DNA of 64,000 nt from the NCBI GenBank assembly GCA_946183415.1, contig CAMHAM010000006.1, positions 42,339 to 106,338 of the forward strand. Reading direction: 5' to 3'. The notes beneath the pieces were generated by a model. The model saw only the letters and a program-made list of their open reading frames with translations, was not told the origin of the DNA and ran no database searches. Source of the DNA: an uncultured Prevotella sp. (GTDB lineage Bacteria > Bacteroidota > Bacteroidia > Bacteroidales > Bacteroidaceae). Positions 14,205-61,823 of the stretch are shown here, in pieces. A program made the position numbers and the translations under genes. Within the stretch, counting starts at the first letter, position 1. Each line of letters starts with the position of its first letter.

Positions 14205-14878
14205 TACTTCTTACGGATAAGCACCTCGTCGATCATACCATAGGCTTTCGCCTCCTCTGCCGTCATCCAGTAGTTACGGTCTGAATCGGCATAGACCTTG
14301 TCATAGGGGGTATGTGAGTGGTCAGAGATGATGGTATACAACTCTTTCTTGAACTTCAGGATCTCCTTGGCCTCGATCTCGATGTCCGAAGCCTGACCCT
14401 GCACGCCACCAAGGGGCTGGTGGATCATCACACGACTGTGGGGCAGTGCTGAGCGCTTGCCCTCTGTGCCTGCCACGAGCAGCACGGCTCCCATCGAGGC
14501 AGCCATACCTGTACAGATCGTAGCCACGTCGGAGGAGATAAACTGCATGGTGTCGTAGATACCGAGACCTGCCGTCACGCTGCCACCAGGCGAGTTGATA
14601 TAGATAGAGATATCCTTGCCTGAGTCCACGGAGTCGAGATAGAGCAACTGTGCCTGCAACGTATTGGCGGTATAGTCGTCAATCTGTGTGCCGAGGAAGA
14701 TGATACGGTCCATCATCAGTCGTGAGAACACGTCCATCTGCGTCACGTTCAACTGGCGCTCCTCGAGGATATAAGGGTTCAAATACTGTGCCTGAGCCTT
14801 CATCACGTCGTCGAGCGTCAAGCCATCCATGCCTAAATGCTGAGTAGCATATTTCCTAAAATCGTTTCTATTGTTCAT
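14204..14878 (-). CDS. clpP: ATP-dependent Clp protease proteolytic subunit ClpP
   Basis: 224 aa; [38 protein letters not shown]; 1-nt overlap with clpX. Confidence 0.96.
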
Positions 14879-14892
14879 TTTTACTTCTTACT

Positions 14893-14920
14893 TTTTCACT
14901 TTTCATTTTTCACTTTTCAC
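14893..14920. repeat. 7-bp-period array (TTTTCAC/TTTTCAT x4) upstream of clpP
   Basis: ttttcac ttttcat ttttcac ttttcac read directly. Confidence 0.85.
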
Positions 14921-15028
14921 TACCGAAAGAGAGGCTATCGACCTTCTGATTCTCGTGTTTGGGACACAAAGATAATCAAAAAAGTCGATAACCTCTCTAA
15001 AATAGGGGTTATTTTTTCCTAAAAAAAC

Positions 15029-16458: not shown

Positions 16459-16564
16459 GAAGTGAAATGTGAGAAGTGAAGAGTGAAAAGTTGCAGTGCC
16501 TTTTGCTTTTTTAACTTTTCACTCCCCACTTTTCACTATTAACTATGAACTCTTAACTCTTAGC
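16459..16564. repeat. 7-bp-period arrays in inverted orientation between tig and lptB
   Basis: Left arm gaagtga aatgtga gaagtga agagtga aaagttg; right arm ttttcac tccccac ttttcac tattaac tatgaac tcttaac tcttagc. Perfect 12-bp inverted pair 16481-16492 / 16513-16524. Confidence 0.8.
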
Positions 16565-17332
16565 TTCCCTCTCCTCCGCCAGCTTCTGGAAATCCTTCTT
16601 GCGAAGCTCAAACGACTCTGTGAGGTATTTCTCACGCACAATCTTATTGGCTGCCAGCTCCTCAGGCGTACCCTGGAAGAGGATACGGCCCTCAAACAAC
16701 AGGTAGGCACGATCGGTGATGGCCAGTGTCTCGTCAACGTTATGGTCAGTGATCAGGATACCGATATTCAGATACTTCAGCTTGTAGACGATCTGCTGGA
16801 TATCCTCTACGGCGATGGGGTCTACACCTGCGAAAGGCTCGTCGAGCATGATGAACTTCGGTTCGATGGCGAGACAACGGGCAATCTCCGTTCTACGACG
16901 CTCACCGCCTGAAAGACGGTCTCCCGTGTTCTTGCGCACCTTCTCCAGACGGAACTCGGCTATCAGCTCCTCCAGCTTATTCAACTGGTAGTCGCGGGGC
17001 TTACCCGTCATCTCCAGCACTGAGAGGATATTGTCCTCGACCGTCATCTTACGGAACACCGAGGCCTCCTGTGCCAGATAGCCGATACCAGCACGGGCAC
17101 GCTTGTAGACAGGGTATTTCGTCACCTCCTCGTCGCCCAGGTAGATATGTCCGCCATTGGGCACCACCAGACCCGTCGTCATGTAGAACGAGGTGGTCTT
17201 TCCGGCACCGTTAGGTCCCAGCAGTCCCACGATCTCACCCTGCTTCACGTCGAAGCTCACATCATTGACCACCGTGCGCTTTCCGTAGCGCTTCACGAGG
17301 CCTTCTGTGCGTAAAACTATCTTTTCTTCCAT
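16553..17332 (-). CDS. lptB: LPS export ABC transporter ATP-binding protein
   Basis: [51 protein letters not shown]...[16 protein letters not shown]. Confidence 0.93.
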
Positions 17333-32500: not shown

Positions 32501-33103
32501 AAGGCTGGTCAAGTGGCCCAAGATGTAAATGATAATAAGATGGTACCTGGTGGTACTTTATACGCCGAGAGTTACGACGGTTTCACCTTCAAGCTAATCG
32601 CAGGTTCGGGTACCATTGAGATTGACGAAATTGTGGAAAACGACCATGAGTTCCACCTGATCATCGGTACAAACAAGCCCATCACGCTCAATGGAAATAA
32701 TTCAATAATCCGGCCATACGATGGCAAAAGTGTACGCGTACAGGCAGAAATCGCATTCAATGTGGGAGCACCTACTTACTGTTTCCTCTATATGGTGAAG
32801 AAGACTGCCAGCACACGTCTGGGTAAGCGCGACAAGGCTCATGGCAAGTTGGTCTCTGTACAAGTGAGATCGACAACTGTCATTCCTACCGAACCACCTT
32901 CTGAGGCTACGGGCGGCGTCATCCCCAAATCTGATGATCCCGAGCCTGAAACTGACCCAACACCTCCTACTGGCATCACCTTCGTCAACAGTGACAAGAT
33001 GGCTGTGAAGAGCGGATGGTATACGATCGATGGCCAGAAGATTGCAGAGCCGACACAGAGAGGTCTCTACATCAAGGATGGAAAGAAGGTGGTCATTAAG
33101 TAG
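29537..33103 (+). CDS. Large secreted protein with Big_2-like Ig repeats and C-terminal sorting-like tail
   Basis: 1188 aa; signal peptide; four copies of 'xTLKFSAETATATM...TLTVTPEGL...SSSNxxVATV...TGAVTLVGAGEAVIKAxFxGxxxYEAAEASYxLTVSKA'; tail WYTIDGQKIAEPTQRGLYIKDGKKVVIK. Confidence 0.8.
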   Translation: MKQITRYSIAIATLLLMSMGAWAAGGFTVNYQLDGESTTATVGEVTYSNGTITVTPADGYYLTAEDLKVIKTIDGQYGQTRTDPSIDATVAITATDANADPSGVTTYTFTVTDEKYDYEITANFHSRKDVAEALIALPEDAVFVYSGEAIKPAVSVTYAGEAMTADKDYTVEYANNINVGSGDITITGIGIYTGTKTVNFDINQASVAIRFESADGSEAKELSSVYGTAFTEPILKLDPAGAIEVKYSVDNEEIATVDAATGKLTILKTGTVVITAAAKEDYTNKEGSNYNANPTNTKASYSLTITTATPTLKFSAETATATMGTTFVAPTLTVTPEGLAPIEYESTNTEVATVDKNTGVVTLVGKGEATIKAVFPGNENYETALASYILTVSKATATLKFSAETATAIMGAEFAAPTLTVTPEGLQDVKYSSSNTNVATVNETTGAVTLVGAGEAVIKASFAGTTVYEAAEASYKLTVSNATMNVTATGYEGNYDGKAHGITVKAPEGATVKYGTEEGKYDLTESPAYTDAGTYTVYYQVTKENTETVTGSAKVTITKGSATLKFSAETATATMGTTFVAPTLTVTPEGLQDVKYSSSNTNVATVNETTGAVTLVGAGEAVIKASFAGTTVYEAAEASYVLTVSKAKTELKFSSATATATMNAEFEAPILTKSPENLEGVEFTSSNEAAATVDKTTGAVTLVGAGETTIKAAFTGSTVYEASEASYTLTVNRAAGEGYLLWVNDTQVTSDNAEDVLGHKTDSSKPYYIYNKDKKQLYMDNDQTRTTVIESRMPELTVYIKDANKIKRIFFNNTGDASNKGNLTFTTNGNFPGKLIIANPTKGHSAIKGFSNISYNWDLTAIEPDGSYYDTTTLEMKYKKETDAIVIADTITIGEAIVPITEKRAITFEESQLVEKDEDGKVKKDESGNPIKANLSNYSYAPSSTTGEPEKNVIHISLNSANIGNDAGGFDIENGVGGIYIEDTMTDEKAGQVAQDVNDNKMVPGGTLYAESYDGFTFKLIAGSGTIEIDEIVENDHEFHLIIGTNKPITLNGNNSIIRPYDGKSVRVQAEIAFNVGAPTYCFLYMVKKTASTRLGKRDKAHGKLVSVQVRSTTVIPTEPPSEATGGVIPKSDDPEPETDPTPPTGITFVNSDKMAVKSGWYTIDGQKIAEPTQRGLYIKDGKKVVIK
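30465..31737 (+). repeat. Four tandem-like Big_2 module repeats within the CDS at 29537-33103
   Basis: Modules at about 30465-30719, 30720-30981, 31216-31476 and 31477-31737; a different MBG-like module lies at about 30982-31215. Confidence 0.85.
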
Positions 33104-33130
33104 TTTAGAGTTTAAAGTTTAGAGTTTAAA
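33103..33130. repeat. 7-bp-period array GTTTAGA/GTTTAAA x4 starting at the stop codon
   Basis: gtttaga gtttaaa gtttaga gtttaaa; first G is the last base of the TAG stop. Confidence 0.85.
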
Positions 33131-33132
33131 GA

Positions 33133-33167: not shown

Positions 33168-33902
33168 CTAAAAGTTCCACTTAAATGCCACAGTCGGATT
33201 GATGAAGAACGACTTGTCGTTGTAAGTGTGATAGATGAAGTTGTTGCTAATCTCGACCTCGCTACCGAAGCTGATGTTCTTAGTGACATTATACCAGAAC
33301 TGAGGCTCGGTAAGGATGACGAGCATGCCGTGACCCTCGTGGCCAGCACGCCAGTTCTCACCGCGCCAGAAGTCGATAAAGCCAGAGAAGGTGCACTTCC
33401 CGCCAGCGAAGTTCAGCCCCCATACGCCAGTGAGCTGGAAGCTGTGATAGGCGCGTGTGTAGTCGTAGCTCTTGAAGTAGCGCTTGTACATCAGCTGTAC
33501 GGACCACGTCTTCGAGAAGTCGGCATTGTGACCGTTGTAGGCAGCACCCAGAAGGGCTGCATGCTGGAAACTGCCAATCTGATCGCGCCCCAGTCCGCCG
33601 TCGTACTCAATATGGGCGGCGAAGGGCGACTCCTTGCCAAACTTGAACTCACGCGAAATCTCAGTGTAAGCGCTGCGGAAGAACTTGCTGCTGAGGTCGA
33701 GGTCGACGAAATAGTACCAAGATCCCAGTTTGTCGGCCTTGAACTGTTCGACGGTGACAGTCACCTTCTGGCGTCCGTCTTCCTCGTTGGGGTAGATGTT
33801 ACGTCCGAAGTCGTAGTGTAGCTGGATGTCTTGTGCCTGCACAGTGATGACGGCTGCCGCCACCAGTGCCAATGTAATCAATCTTTTCATTTTTTCTTTC
33901 AT
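33168..33902 (-). CDS. DUF5020-like outer-membrane (Tsx-like) protein
   Basis: MKRLITLALVAAAVITVQAQDIQLHYDFGRNIYPNEEDGRQKVTVTVEQFKADKLGSWYYFVDLDL resembles Bacteroidetes DUF5020 proteins. Confidence 0.7.
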   Translation of the reverse strand: MKEKMKRLITLALVAAAVITVQAQDIQLHYDFGRNIYPNEEDGRQKVTVTVEQFKADKLGSWYYFVDLDLSSKFFRSAYTEISREFKFGKESPFAAHIEYDGGLGRDQIGSFQHAALLGAAYNGHNADFSKTWSVQLMYKRYFKSYDYTRAYHSFQLTGVWGLNFAGGKCTFSGFIDFWRGENWRAGHEGHGMLVILTEPQFWYNVTKNISFGSEVEISNNFIYHTYNDKSFFINPTVAFKWNF

Positions 33903-35104
33903 TATTTTATTCGTTCTGTTAGTTTTTCAATGATGATCCTCGCGGCGGTTTCAGGGGCTTTCTGACTGCCCAGGCGGCGAGCCACCTCGGCATAGCCCTC
34001 GAGCATCCGCTCACGCGCCTCGCCATCGAGGATCTGCAGAAGTTCGTGGCGAATATTCTCCACGGAGAAGGTCTCAGCCAGGAGTTCCTTGACCACTTCG
34101 CGATCAGCGATGAGGTTCACGAGCGAGATATACTTCACCTTCAGCAGGTGGCGGCGCAGGTAACCCAAGATCTTGGGCAGCGGCACTTTGTAGCATACCA
34201 CCTGAGGCACCCCGAAGAGACAAGTCTCGAGTGTAGCCGTACCGCTGGTGACGAGGGCGGCATGCGCCTGTGCCAGCAGGGGGTAGGTCTCGTTGTAGAC
34301 GATTTCCACATCGCGCCCGCGCGTGAACATATTATAATATGTAGGTTCGATGGCTGGGGCACCAGCGATGACAATGCGGTAATCCTTCTGAAGTCCCTCC
34401 ACGGCATCGAGCATCGCGGGGAGATTATCCTTGATCTCCTGTTTCCGCGAGCCTGCGAGGAGGGCGAGGAGCTTTTTCGAGGAGGGAGGAGTGTGGAGTG
34501 TGGAGTGAGATATGTCTGTGGCTTCACTCCTCACTCCACACTCCTCACTCCTCAAATATTCACGAACTTCATCGGCAGTGGGGTTGCCTACGTAATGGAT
34601 GGGATAATGGTGCTTCTTCTCGAAGAAATCCACCTCGAAAGGGAGGATGGAGAGAAGTTCATCGACATCGCGACGGATGTTCTTGATGCGGTACTCCTTC
34701 CACGCCCAGATCTTCGGAGAAATGTAGTAAAAAATCCGAGGAACATGACCATTAGCGAACTTTTCACTTTTCACTTTTCGCTTTTCATTTCCTATGTATT
34801 TGGCAATCTTCAGATTGAAGCCAGGATAATCGACGAGGATGACGCAATCTGGCTGCCAGTCAGTGATGTCCTGCTTGCACATCTTCATATTCTTCAGGAT
34901 AGTTGGGAGATGCAACAACACGGGTATAAAGCCCATATAAGCCAGTTCCTTATAGTGGCGCACGCGGGTGCCGCCAACGGCTGTCATCAGGTCGCCGCCA
35001 AAGAAGCGGAACTCTGCCTTAGCGTCAATATCTTTCAATGCCCGCATCAGGTGTGATGCATGGAGGTCGCCTGAGGCTTCACCAACTATCAGATAGTATT
35101 TCAT
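33902..35104 (-). CDS. lpxB: Lipid-A-disaccharide synthase, with two in-frame repeat-derived insertions
   Basis: MKYYLIVGEASGDLHASHLMRALK...YISPKIWAWKEYRIKNI...LALLAGSRKQEIKDNLP...ALVTSGTATLET. Confidence 0.93.
   Translation of the reverse strand: MKYYLIVGEASGDLHASHLMRALKDIDAKAEFRFFGGDLMTAVGGTRVRHYKELAYMGFIPVLLHLPTILKNMKMCKQDITDWQPDCVILVDYPGFNLKIAKYIGNEKRKVKSEKFANGHVPRIFYYISPKIWAWKEYRIKNIRRDVDELLSILPFEVDFFEKKHHYPIHYVGNPTADEVREYLRSEECGVRSEATDISHSTLHTPPSSKKLLALLAGSRKQEIKDNLPAMLDAVEGLQKDYRIVIAGAPAIEPTYYNMFTRGRDVEIVYNETYPLLAQAHAALVTSGTATLETCLFGVPQVVCYKVPLPKILGYLRRHLLKVKYISLVNLIADREVVKELLAETFSVENIRHELLQILDGEARERMLEGYAEVARRLGSQKAPETAARIIIEKLTERIK
34479..34553. repeat. Inverted heptamer arrays forming a 75-bp hairpin inside lpxB
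   Basis: gaggagg gaggagt gtggagt gtggagt / 19-nt loop / actcctc actccac actcctc actcctc; 26 of 28 positions complementary. Confidence 0.9.
34761..34788. repeat. 7-bp-period array TTTTCAC x4 inside lpxB
   Basis: ttttcac ttttcac ttttcgc ttttcat, encoding part of NEKRKVKSEKFANG on the reverse strand. Confidence 0.85.
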
Positions 35105-35188
35105 GTGGAGTGAGGAGTGTGGAGTGTGGAGTGAGGAGTGAGGAGTGAGGAGTGTGGAGTGAGGAGTGTGGAGTGAGGAGTGTGGAAT
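35105..35188. repeat. Twelve-unit 7-bp array (GTGGAGT/GAGGAGT) filling the surE-lpxB gap
   Basis: Twelve consecutive heptamers from the base after the lpxB start codon to the surE stop codon. Confidence 0.95.
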
Positions 35189-43779: not shown

Positions 43780-46476
43780 CTAAAGTTTGCACAACTCTAC
43801 GACCTTGTCGATGGCAGCGGTGAGCCCGTCGGGGTTCTTGCCGCCTGCCGAGGCGAAGTGGGGTTGTCCGCCGCCACCGCCCTGCATCAGCTTGGCGGCC
43901 TCGCGCACGAGCTGGCCTGCATTCAGACCATGATCCTTCACCATGTCATCGCTGAGCATCACATTCAGCATGGGCTTGCCGTCGTAAGTGGTACCTACGA
44001 CGCAGAGCAGCGCCTCAGGGCAGAGCTCACGAACCTTAAACACCAGGTCCTTGGCAGCTGCGGGTGCCAGCTCAAGCTGTGTAGAGACAACCGTCACACC
44101 GTTTACCAGACGAGCCTTGCTTACAAGACTTTGGGCAAACTGCTGCACCTTCTGGGCCTGGAACTGCTCGATATCCTTCTTCATAGAGTCGTGCTCCTCG
44201 ATGTATTTCGCAATCACGCCCTGCAGATCCTTCGCATTATTGAAGAATCCCTTGATAGCCTTCAGGATATCCTCTGTCTGATACAACAGCTCCTCACACT
44301 CCTTACCAGTCTTGGCCTCGATACGGCGGATACCTGCGGCAACACTGCTCTCGGCAATGATCTTGAAGAAACCGATCTTACCTGTAGCCTTGGCGTGGAT
44401 ACCACCGCAGAACTCACACGACGGTCCAAAACGAACCACGCGCACCTTGTCGCCATACTTCTCACCAAAGAGGGCGATGGCACCAAGCTTCTTGGCCTCG
44501 TCGAAGGGCACTTCGCGGTGCTCATCCAGAGGGATATCCTCACGGATCATCTCATTCACCATACGCTCTACCTGACGGATTTCCTCATCTGTCACCTTCT
44601 GGAAGTGAGAGAAGTCGAAGCGCAGGGTGTCAGGGCTGACGAACGAGCCCTTCTGCTCCACATGGTCGCCAAGCACCTGCTTCAGCGCATAGTCGAGCAG
44701 GTGGGTAGCAGTATGGTTAGCGGCTGAAGCATCGCGCTTATCGGTATCCACACAAGCCATGAACTGCGCTGTGGGATCCTTTGGCAACTGTTTCACGATA
44801 TGTACACTCTGGTTGTTCTCGCGCTTGGTATCGATAATCTCAATGGTCTCTGCCTCATTGCAGATGACACCACAATCACCTACCTGACCACCCATCTCGC
44901 CATAGAAAGGCGTATGATCGAACACGAGTTCATAGAACTCATTCTTCTTCTGTGTCACCTTGCGGTAGCGCAGGATATGACACTCATATTCCGTATAGTC
45001 GTAGCCCACGAACTGCTGCTCGCCCTGAGCGAGTTCCACCCAGTCGCTGTTCTCCACAGCTGCAGCATTACGCGCGCGCTCCTTCTGCTTCTGCATCTCC
45101 ACGTCGAACTGCTTCTCATCCACCGTGAAGCCCTGTTCGCGGCAGATAAGCTCCGTCAGGTCGAGCGGGAAGCCGTAGGTATCGAAGAGACGGAAGGCCT
45201 GCACGCCGTCGAGCTCCGTCTTGTGCTCTGCCTTCAACTGTGCCATTGCGTCGCTGAGCATGCCGATACCCTTATCCAGTGTGCGGAGGAACGAGTCTTC
45301 CTCTTCCTTCATCACCTTCGAGATTAACTGCTGCTGAGCCTTCAACTCGGGGAAGGCACCACCCATCTCCTCAACGATTGTGGGCACGAGCTTATAGAGG
45401 AAACTCTCTTTCTGACCTAAGAAGGTATAGGCATAACGCACGGCACGGCGCAGGATACGACGGATCACGTAACCAGCCTTCGCATTAGAAGGCAGCTGGC
45501 CGTCTGCGATGGAGAAGCTCACGGCTCTCAGATGGTCAGCGCAGACGCGCATGGCCACGTTGATACTAGCCTGGCTAGGATTACTAGTATTACTAGTCTG
45601 GCTAGTCGGACTAGTCGGACTAGAGCTACTAGCCTCCTCCTCGAAGGTCGTGTACTTCAGCCCCGTAATCTGCTCCTCAGCCTTGATGATTGGCTGGAAG
45701 ATGTCAGTGTCGTAGTTGGAGTGCTTGCCCTGCAGCATGCGCACGAGGCGCTCGAAGCCCATACCAGTATCGATTACGTTCATCGAGAGCTTCTCGAGCG
45801 AGCCATCTGCCTTACGGTTGAACTGCATGAACACCAGGTTCCAGATCTCGATCACCTGAGGATCATCCTGATTCACCAGGTCGCGACCACTGATACCTGA
45901 GGCTTTGCGCTGCTCGGGAGTACGGCTGTCCACGTGAATCTCAGAACAGGGACCGCAGGGACCTGTATCGCCCATCTCCCAGAAGTTGTCGTGCTTATTG
46001 CCGTTGATGATATGATCCTCGGGCACATGCTTTGACCAGTATTTGGCAGCCTCGTCATCGCGGGGGATATTCTCCTCGGGCGAACCCTCGAACACCGTCA
46101 CGTAGAGGTCCTCGGGATTCAGTTTCAGCACGTCTACCAGGTATTCCCAGGCCATATCGATGGCGCCCTCCTTGAAATAGTCGCCAAAGCTCCAGTTGCC
46201 AAGCATCTCGAACATCGTGTGGTGGTAGGTGTCGTGGCCTACTTCCTCCAGGTCGTTATGCTTACCACTGACGCGCAGGCACTTCTGGGTGTCTGCACGG
46301 CGGCGCGGCTCAGGGTCGCGGGTTCCTAATATGATATCCTTCCACTGGTTCATACCAGCGTTAGTAAACATCAGTGTGGGGTCGTCTTTAATCACCATCG
46401 GTGCAGAAGGCACGATGGCATGCTGCTTCGACTCAAAGAATTTCTTGAAAGAGTCACGAATCTCGTTTGCTGTCAT
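43780..46476 (-). CDS. alaS: Alanyl-tRNA synthetase, with low-complexity in-frame insertion
   Basis: [48 protein letters not shown]...[12 protein letters not shown]; insertion [26 protein letters not shown] before [17 protein letters not shown]. Confidence 0.95.
45566..45632. repeat. 9-bp-period CTAG array inside alaS (8 CTAG)
   Basis: CTAG at 45566, 45575, 45584, 45593, 45602, 45611, 45620, 45629. Confidence 0.95.
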
Positions 46477-46629: not shown

Positions 46630-47280
46630 ATGAAAGATTTCAGTACATCAAACGTCCTTCGCCCTCAGGCAAATTGGGAGGCACTCCACTTCTATCAGAA
46701 GTCAAAGGTTCTGTATCAGATCACCTTCACATTCTCGAAACGGTATCTCATCAGGGGAGACCGCACCATCGATCAGATGGTACAGGCAGCACGTTCAGGT
46801 AAACAGAACATCGTTGAAGGCTCTGCCGACGGTGTCACATCGACCCAGATGGAGATCAACCTCATCAACGTGGCTCGTTCCAGCATCAAGGAGCTACGCG
46901 AAGACTACGAGGATTACCTCATATCCAGAGGACTTACTATCTGGACAAAGACACACCAGCGCTTTGGGCCAATGGTCAGTTTCTGCAGATCACGCAACCG
47001 CCTGGAAGACTATCAGCCGTTTATCCCACGATGGAACGATGAGGAATTAGCCAACGTCGCGCTCTCCCTCTGCCACTTTATCGACAGGATGATGGTATCC
47101 TACGAGAAGTATTTGGAGCAAGTATTCATCACCGAAGGAGGCATCAAGGAGCGCATGACGGCCGCCCGTCTTGGCTACCGCACAAACCAGCGCGAAGAAC
47201 TGGCCCGCCTCCACAAGGAACTCGCTGCCACCCAGGCCCAACTATCCGGCGCCCTAGAGAAACTCGCAGGAAAGCCCTAG
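46630..47280 (+). CDS. Four-helix-bundle (23S rRNA-IVP-like) protein with suffix domain
   Basis: FSKRYLIRGDRTIDQMVQAARSGKQNIVEGSADGVTSTQMEINLINVARSSIKELREDYEDYL. Confidence 0.8.
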   Translation: MKDFSTSNVLRPQANWEALHFYQKSKVLYQITFTFSKRYLIRGDRTIDQMVQAARSGKQNIVEGSADGVTSTQMEINLINVARSSIKELREDYEDYLISRGLTIWTKTHQRFGPMVSFCRSRNRLEDYQPFIPRWNDEELANVALSLCHFIDRMMVSYEKYLEQVFITEGGIKERMTAARLGYRTNQREELARLHKELAATQAQLSGALEKLAGKP

Positions 47281-47343
47281 TCCCCCTAGTCCAACTAGTC
47301 CGACTAGTCCTACTAGAACGACTAGAACGACTAGGGCTGCTAG
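47277..47343. repeat. 9-bp-period CTAG array upstream of parC (8 CTAG)
   Basis: CTAG at 47277, 47286, 47295, 47304, 47313, 47322, 47331, 47340; first CTAG contains the upstream stop codon. Confidence 0.95.
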
Positions 47344-47420
47344 AAAAAAATCCCCCCAATTCCTCGTTTTTCTCGCCAGAAATGCTTACCTTTGCAGGCA
47401 GAAACACTAAAGACCGTTTT

Positions 47421-57965: not shown

Positions 57966-57990
57966 ATATATAAACCTAGTCTATTTTTAC

Positions 57991-58032
57991 ACTCCACACT
58001 CCTCACTACTCGCCCCTCACTCCACACTCCTC
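57991..58032. repeat. 7-bp-period array (ACTCCAC/ACTCCTC, 6 units)
   Basis: actccac actcctc actactc gcccctc actccac actcctc, abutting the stop codon of the CDS at 58031. Confidence 0.85.
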
Positions 58033-58531
58033 ACTTCATCTTCCACCGGCCTTGACGCTCCACCATGGGGACAACAATCTCCTCGTTGACGGAATCACCG
58101 AAACAGAGCACCAGGAAGACATTCGTGACCTTCAGCGTGGTGTCAGTCCGGGCATTGGAGATACGCACCTCGCGGATACCATGATGCACTTCCTCCTGCT
58201 GCGCCATAAACTGGCGGAGATTCACCTCGTGCTCCTCCATACGGTCGATGGTGCCGATAGTATCCAGCGGCTGGAATTCCTTTCCCTCAAGGAACTCGCG
58301 ATATTCGCCCCGCATCAAGTGCTCATAATAGCCCTTCGCTGCCAGCGAGGCCATCTCCTCAGGCGTAGGGCCGCCGCAGGCGCCCACTAGAAAGGCTAGT
58401 ATAACTAGTCGGACTAGTCGGACTAGACGGACTAGACGAACTAGATGGACTAGACGAACTAGATGGACTAGACGAACTAGATGGACTAGGAATCCTGGCG
58501 CCTCTGGCCTGCCAACACTGCCCTTCCTCAT
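58031..58531 (-). CDS. Small lipoprotein whose signal peptide is encoded by a 9-bp CTAG array
   Basis: [73 protein letters not shown]; lipobox LVGAC; ATGA overlap with der. Confidence 0.7.
58387..58489. repeat. 9-bp-period CTAG array (12 CTAG) within the lipoprotein signal sequence
   Basis: CTAG at 58387, 58396, 58405, 58414, 58423, 58432, 58441, 58450, 58459, 58468, 58477, 58486. Confidence 0.95.
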
Positions 58532-59850: not shown

Positions 59851-59890
59851 TTTTTCTAGGATTGCCTAGGATCGCCTAGGATTGCCTAGG
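59851..59890. repeat. 10-bp-period CCTAGG array between der and era
   Basis: tttttctagg attgcctagg atcgcctagg attgcctagg; CTAG at 59856, 59866, 59876, 59886. Confidence 0.9.
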
Positions 59891-60787: not shown

Positions 60788-60791
60788 CAAC

Positions 60792-60826
60792 TTTTCACTT
60801 TTCACTCCTCACTTTTCATTTCTCAC
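60792..60826. repeat. 7-bp-period array between era and fabH, extending into the fabH 3' end
   Basis: ttttcac ttttcac tcctcac ttttcat ttctcac. Confidence 0.85.
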
Positions 60827-61823
60827 TTCCGTTGTATGCCCACTTTAAGTAGGATGCTCCATGTACAAATCCTGCACCAAACGCGGTGAGTATCATGTTA
60901 TCGCCCTTCTGGAGACGATTTTCGTAGTCCCATAGGGCGAGCGGTATCGTGGCAGCACTCGTGTTACCGTAGTGCTCAATGTTCACCATCACCTGTTCCA
61001 TTGGGAGTTCCAGACGCTTGGCTACTGCCTCGATGATACGCATATTGGCCTGATGAGGAACGACCCACTGGATGTTATCCTTGTTCAGGCCGTTACGCTC
61101 AGCTATCAGCGCACAGTCGTTGCTCATGTTCGTCACTGCATAGCGGAACACCGTGCGCCCCTCTTGATAGAGATAGTGCAGACGATGATCTACCGTGAAG
61201 TGCGACGGCGGGCAGACGGAACCTCCTGCCTTCATATGCAGGAACGGGAGTCCCTTGCCATCTGTGCGGAAGTAGGAATCCATCACACCGATATTCTGCT
61301 CTTCTGTGGCCTCAAGAAGGACTGCTGCAGCACCGTCACCAAAGAGGGGACATGTCTGGCGGTCCTTATAGTCTGTCACCGACGACATCTTATCGGCTCC
61401 GATGATGATAATCTTCTTATAGCGTCCGCTCTGGATCATCGTCGCAGCCACGTCGAGTGTATAGAGGAATCCGCAACAGGCGCCCCAGAAGTCGAAGGCG
61501 AAAGCATTCTTCAGTCCCAACTTTCCTACAACGATACTGGCCGTCGAGGGGAACTTATAGTCAGCCGTAGAAGTGGCTACAATCACTGCGTCGATGGAAT
61601 CAGGGTCTGCACCAGTCTTCTGCATCAGCTGCTTGGCAGCCTTACGTGCCATATAACTGGTGCCGAGACCTTCCTCCGTCAGGATGCGGCGCTCTTTGAT
61701 ACCCACACGCGTCATAATCCACTCATCGTTGGTGTCAACCATCCTCGACAGTTCATCATTGGTAAGAACATAATCGGGAACGTAGCCACCTACGCCAGTG
61801 ATGATCGCGTTGATTTTATCCAT
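60816..61823 (-). CDS. fabH: 3-oxoacyl-ACP synthase III
   Basis: [48 protein letters not shown]...[17 protein letters not shown]...[20 protein letters not shown]. Confidence 0.94.

Follow-up and report, generated by a model that had tools for sequence, protein, structure and literature searches.

A hairpin of inverted heptamers inside lpxB of an uncultured Prevotella is one copy of a dispersed palindromic family

The window, the whole 64,000-nt stretch of DNA analysed here, carries on its reverse strand the gene lpxB (33902-35104), which encodes a lipid-A-disaccharide synthase of 400 aa (TIGR00215, 210.9 bits against a cut-off of 190.25). An earlier note, made from the sequence alone, described a hairpin of inverted heptamers within this gene, and the structure is real. 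The coordinates were right, 26 of the 28 positions were complementary, and the folding energy of the RNA was -55.8 kcal/mol, compared with -23.8 (sd 3.3) for shuffled sequences (z -9.6; 0 of 200 shuffles). The forward strand reads GAGGAGG GAGGAGT GTGGAGT GTGGAGT at 34479-34506, then 19 nt, and then ACTCCTC ACTCCAC ACTCCTC ACTCCTC at 34526-34553. The array of four heptamers is thus present as described, except that the first unit is GAGGAGG and not GAGGAGT. An inverted-repeat search gave arms of 33 nt each (34476-34508 and 34524-34556) with 91% complementarity.

In the coding sense, the 5' arm (34524-34555, reverse strand) is GAGGAGT GAGGAGT GTGGAGT GAGGAGT and encodes approximately RSEECGVRSE, the loop occupies 34509-34523, and the 3' arm (34477-34508) is ACTCCAC ACTCCAC ACTCCTC CCTCCTCGA, encoding approximately SHSTLHTPPSSK. 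The hairpin stretch reads RSEECGVRSEATDISHSTLHTPPSSKK, which matches the peptide quoted in the note, and the frame is kept in the 400-aa protein. A pure GAGGAGT array would give TGA in any frame every 21 nt, at the junction GTGA; the in-frame heptamer junction of the lpxB copy is TGT (Cys), not TGA. In an AF2 model of LpxB (mean pLDDT 85), the hairpin-encoded residues 191-210 formed a low-confidence coil with a block pLDDT of 52-64; helix 175-188 precedes it and strand 211-216 follows it, which places it between the two domains of the enzyme. The gene contains a second repeat insert, a GAAAAGT-type heptamer array that encodes KRKVKSEK (34759-34787, reverse strand). This site was also variable, with up to about 26 extra residues derived from other repeats in relatives, while many relatives, and E. 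coli LpxB, have only a short insert or none. The E. coli enzyme has shorter segments at both insert places.

The surE-lpxB spacer was found, as claimed, to be built of the same heptamers: about 11 copies of GWGGAGT in a single orientation (35105-35186, forward strand) fill it up to the lpxB ATG. Tandem GWRRAGT pairs numbered 25 in the window, against 0.03 expected, and most of the standalone heptamer arrays near the loci were single-orientation. Heptamer-like arrays were also seen in the surE-lpxB spacer of a sister genome (L031:2437-2502) and upstream of lpxB in L032-L034. The spacer unit differed by relative (ACTCCTC, ACATTCC, AACTCTA or AT-rich), so these arrays turn over fast.

The earlier note set the hairpin apart from an ordinary conserved loop and proposed that LpxB orthologues be aligned and genomes lacking the element sought. 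When 110 LpxB loci from Prevotella were compared by tblastn, most were without the hairpin, which was present in six (our genome, L031, L034, L035, L053 and L095), and the distinction therefore holds. The stretch from GNPTADEV to LALLAGSRKQE was hypervariable, 45-60 nt in many genomes and up to 138 nt elsewhere; it measures 96 nt in our genome and 51 nt in a near relative without the hairpin (L033), a difference of 45 nt. The arms at this site differed between loci (GAGGAGT in our genome, GGAATGT in L031, GAGGGTG in L035, GGTGCGG in L053 and GAGGTAC in L095), and the loops were recognisably one sequence, GAGAATACTCCTGCCGCAGA...ATCTC. Some other LpxB loci had a single arm only, and CCCCTCC/GGAGGGG motifs, mostly unrelated palindromes, occurred in sixteen. 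When the variable columns were left out of the LpxB tree, 4 changes were required for the hairpin and 12 for the CCCCTCC/GGAGGGG-type motif, which indicates that the linker was repeatedly hit or cleared. Relatives thus have other in-frame repeats in this hypervariable lpxB linker.

The in-frame inverted array of the earlier note stands, but it is not specific to lpxB: it is one copy of a dispersed, multi-copy family of palindromes with members in many genes and many genomes. A loop pattern, searched with at most 2 mismatches, matched 34 of 200 genomes of the genus Prevotella, with 19 copies in one of them (G136), and the reversed pattern, used as a control, gave 3 matches. Loop-pattern matches without arms (L219-L223, L226, L231, L232 and L234) were judged to be chance coding matches and were left out. 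A covariance model, R1, was built from 16 copies, mainly in-gene ones. It had matches in 29 of 251 genomes of the bacterial family, representing 11 of 30 genera, and in 249 genomes across the phylum there were isolated matches in only four outside that family. Each locus was usually matched on both strands. Among the matches listed, there were at least about 45 loci in G136 (87 matches, both strands), at least 15 in G018, at least 14 in G067 and at least 10 in G119, and positive genomes ranged from a few copies to about 45. Our own genome has further in-frame copies. The loop search found two, one in mfd (C8:76711-76738) and one in a gene for a RecD/Pif1-like helicase (C34:21078-21173); R1 matched both of these as well as the lpxB copy, and added copies in genes for an RsmF-like protein (C48) and an isochorismate synthase (C4).

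The family pattern consists of two complementary arms of about four heptamers and a loop descended from GAGAATACTCCTGCNGCAGA...ATCTC. With paired arms, the element was mostly 79-162 bp and the loop typically 28-42 nt. Copies had a recurrent outer end, TCGAGG...CCTCGA, or otherwise plain heptamer ends. The lpxB copy is a shortened member; comparison with the sister locus L031 and with the family copies showed that its loop is about 9 nt shorter than the family loop GAGAATACTCCTGCNGCAGACAAATCTC. It was matched by R1 at G000:C6:76815-76893 (E 6.8e-12), which corresponds to 79 bp in the window (34477-34555, reverse strand), in the register TTGAGG...CCTCGA, within the linker between the two LpxB domains. 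The '75 bp, exactly 25 codons' of the earlier note is consequently a choice of ends. A search of Rfam with the element gave no match. Most of the genomes compared were metagenome assemblies; an assembly artefact is argued against because independent assemblies share the element at identical sites, both L196 and L227 and, in lpxB, our genome and L031.

Seventy-one of 75 distinct Prevotella copies were in ORFs of 200 aa or more. Stops numbered 169 and 78 in the two forward frames not used and zero in the used frame, a zero that follows by construction since the frame was chosen for being open. One codon phase was common to 50 of the 62 copies with a recognisable loop start. In a set of 20 further copies, 15 of them from other genera (G059 is of the same genus), only 4 were in ORFs of at least 200 aa, a difference (Fisher p 3e-11) that is sample-dependent, R1 having been trained mostly on in-gene copies. 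This training and the selection of open frames inflate the in-gene fraction to an unknown degree. The host genes included lpxB, mfd, dnaG, hflX, era, metH (two different sites), feoAB, uvrA, tamB, an rsmF-like gene, a ketoacyl synthase gene and U32 peptidase genes. Copies were often located at domain linkers of these core proteins. The element began at or just past the end of a domain match in MetH, FeoAB, RsmF and the ketoacyl synthase, at the FeoA|FeoB_N junction, in two MetH linkers and after the RsmF and KAS domains, and the Mfd copy was near the end of the RecG-like part.

Arm sequence varied between copies and hosts while complementarity was kept. Seventeen of 34 pairs had changed on both sides, a value reached in none of 500 shuffles, and the covariation collapsed when the structure was slid by 1-3 columns. 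The W position of the heptamer showed no covariation and was mispaired in about 40% of the copies; because of this mispairing, exact hairpin copying (quasi-palindrome correction) is disfavoured as the sole source of arm complementarity. The sister locus L031 is instructive, as its flanks are 90% and 87% identical to those of our lpxB hairpin and its loop is shared, with arms of GGAATGT. Our genome has 112 GWGGART triplet matches, 110 of them GGAGT-only; the L031 genome has 219, many of them GGAAT, and its surE-lpxB spacer also has GGAAT-type units. The GGAGT and GGAAT arms match the arrays of their respective genomes, which argues that each of the two arms was rewritten to match the heptamers resident there. 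The likeliest route would be recombination or slippage with the resident arrays.

Empty sites were seen at Era, where 18 of 20 fetched probable empties were read. In 14 of the 20 genomes, 54 nt in all lay between NKID and the conserved W, as in NKIDESDQKTLGDIVEKW; three others had 63-75 nt, and L343 had a different long insert. Era with the hairpin, which was present in two genomes (G067 and G162), was 84 nt longer than the empty site NKIDESDQKTLGDIVEKW. One-arm copies in L300 and L315 still end in GAGAATA and for this reason look like deletion remnants. The Mfd linker contained the same mixture of repeats as Era, and in relatives these linkers are occupied by other families of in-frame repeats. 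The element boundaries in LpxB and Mfd are blurred because the linkers there already varied in length.

In the flanks of 75 copies, neither a target-site duplication nor a sharp recurring insertion motif was seen, empty sites being available for Era only, where the linker had changed too. No Y1 transposase (PF01797) was found in our genome, which is 87% complete; there was one in G136, with about 45 hairpins, and three in G016, with no loop-pattern match, so that the counts bore no relation to copy number. Searches of plasmid, phage and viral-contig sequences found no carrier of the element; the one weak plasmid match, to the beginning of an Isosphaera plasmid record, was to heptamer-like sequence and not to a carrier. 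As in MITEs, there are terminal inverted repeats, here the whole arms. The arms also consist of 7-nt units placed head to tail, like heptanucleotide tandem repeats, and have in addition the inverted pairing and the conserved loop. A GTAG tag at the ends and an association with a Y1 transposase, both expected of REP/RAYT systems, were looked for and were absent.

The best-known protein-coding palindromes are those of Rickettsia and Wolbachia. The palindromic elements of these bacteria resemble the Prevotella family in being about 80-160 bp long, multi-copy and in frame in conserved genes. These elements (RPE in Rickettsia) are tolerated in place, with several families at the same loci (PMC2229807, PMC3767692), and an RPE insert in Rickettsia gmk is reported to be translated in an enzyme that is still active (PMC2229807). 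However, the Prevotella family occurs in Bacteroidota, its arms are tandem heptamers that vary with the host's own repeats, and it ends in TCGA rather than the CGTC tag reported of RPE-4 and RPE-6 (PMC3733652); it is set apart by these descriptions, its loop and arms being defined from Bacteroidota copies only. RPE are thus the closest known kind, and by analogy the Prevotella family would work like them with a different build and different ends. REP elements, mobilised by RAYT, are likewise short palindromes in many copies, some inside genes, but they are 20-40 bp with a GTAG tag (PMC3733652), whereas the Prevotella family is about 80-160 bp, without GTAG and without a Y1 link. The TAACTGA heptamer direct repeats of Beggiatoaceae, Cyanobacteria and Bacteroidetes, for which polymerase slippage has been discussed, are also dispersed tandem heptamer arrays, but they are mostly intergenic, in a single orientation, without a conserved loop, have forward-frame stops and are not described as in-frame hairpins (PMC4679880). 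Coding DNA with dyad symmetry is shared with PARCELs, 25-residue tandem protein domains (PMC2996958), and with nematomorph mitochondrial palindromes, for which concerted arm evolution by template switching has been proposed (PMC6649704). The latter are perfect repeats, and conserved amino acids of the host protein are encoded in their arms (PMC6649704), while the Prevotella element, in contrast to both, adds extra linker peptide and has imperfect arms. In the literature of one open-access library, no report of Prevotella heptamer or palindromic in-gene repeats was found.

Several explanations of the lpxB hairpin were weighed. Slippage of tandem repeats might have placed an array in the lpxB linker that came to lie near an opposite-strand array by chance or local inversion, with no mobile element involved. 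In its favour, single-orientation arrays are abundant (the genome has 110 GWGGAGT triplet matches), the W position is free to vary and some copies have one arm. However, this reading is unlikely and largely refuted by the finding that the same loop joins arms at dozens of unrelated loci in many species; the recurrent outer end and the GAGAATA retained by the one-armed Era copies, as if by deletion, also speak against it. Alternatively, the pairing of the RNA itself may be selected, either to slow the ribosome at domain boundaries for co-translational folding or as an RNase III or regulatory site, as the strong pairing, the compensatory changes across copies and the many copies at or between domain matches could suggest. 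Most orthologues do without the element, the same linkers contain one-arm remnants and unrelated repeats, mispairing persists at the W position, the copies in other genera sampled are mostly outside open frames, Rfam has no match, and linkers simply tolerate insertions, all of which makes a functional mRNA hairpin highly improbable. As the element is palindromic and lies within conserved genes, it might be bypassed in translation or otherwise removed to leave a mature protein without the insert, like the byps of Magnusiomyces mitochondria (mentioned in PMC6649704), but this is scarcely credible: the copies are in an open frame though the other two forward frames are stop-rich, and an open frame would not be needed for a skipped segment.

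Very probably, the hairpin belongs to a miniature palindromic repeat of Prevotella and its relatives that is, or once was, mobile, and this copy of it is translated. Most likely it is a tolerated, translated and selfish palindrome, for which we infer translation, neutrality and mobility from sequence comparisons. Copies would persist in genes where the frame is open and the site is a flexible linker. The ribosome would read the element as a hydrophilic, disordered segment that the enzyme tolerates, in LpxB between the N- and C-terminal GT-B domains, and both arms would be rewritten over time to the dominant heptamer family of the genome, with the loop of common descent kept. A broader proposal is put forward tentatively, with rather less than even confidence: the family may represent a class of Bacteroidota mobile elements that spreads inside protein genes, in which the loop carries the identity, the stem is rebuilt in each genome from resident heptamers, and host arrays and arms evolve in concert, being frame-compatible in Prevotella, where the linkers of many housekeeping proteins would have been colonised. 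If the selfish palindrome reading is correct, free-living rumen and gut bacteria have a larger, more modular version of protein-coding palindromes. It would also open to experiment the questions of how short repeats come to lie in essential proteins without destroying them, how linkers gain length and how the two arms of a hairpin are rewritten jointly. For annotators, strings such as RSEECGVRSENTPAADS..NLTPHSTLHTPR in Prevotella proteins would be repeat-derived.

Other repeats were observed in the same linkers and elsewhere in the window. A second family of in-frame palindromes, CCCCTCCC...GGGAGGGG, which encodes peptides such as PTPNPSPREG...SPLPWGGEGGG, is found in these linkers of LpxB, Era and Mfd too (L064, L072, L081, L093, L304, L309, L312, L401 and L414), with 12 changes on the LpxB tree. 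In other genomes the Era loop held these CCCCTCCC palindromes, 9-mer CTAG arrays, which fill the linker in L308, L313, L318 and L321, or 9-mer ACTCAGAAT-type arrays, a further repeat family whose ACTCAGAAT/CAGAGTAGT units are in frame in L299, L301, L314 and L320. Within the window, CTAG-based period-9 arrays (ACTAGTCGG-like) were located at 45564-45623, 47277-47345 and 58404-58489, the first two in frame in long ORFs, and the array at 59856-59890 had period 10. Further heptamer arrays, with units of the TTCACTT, AAGTGAA, AGTTTAG and CACTCCT types, were found at 14874-14921, 16460-16566, 33102-33131, 57990-58035 and 60790-60828; they look intergenic because none is in a long ORF of a recognised gene.
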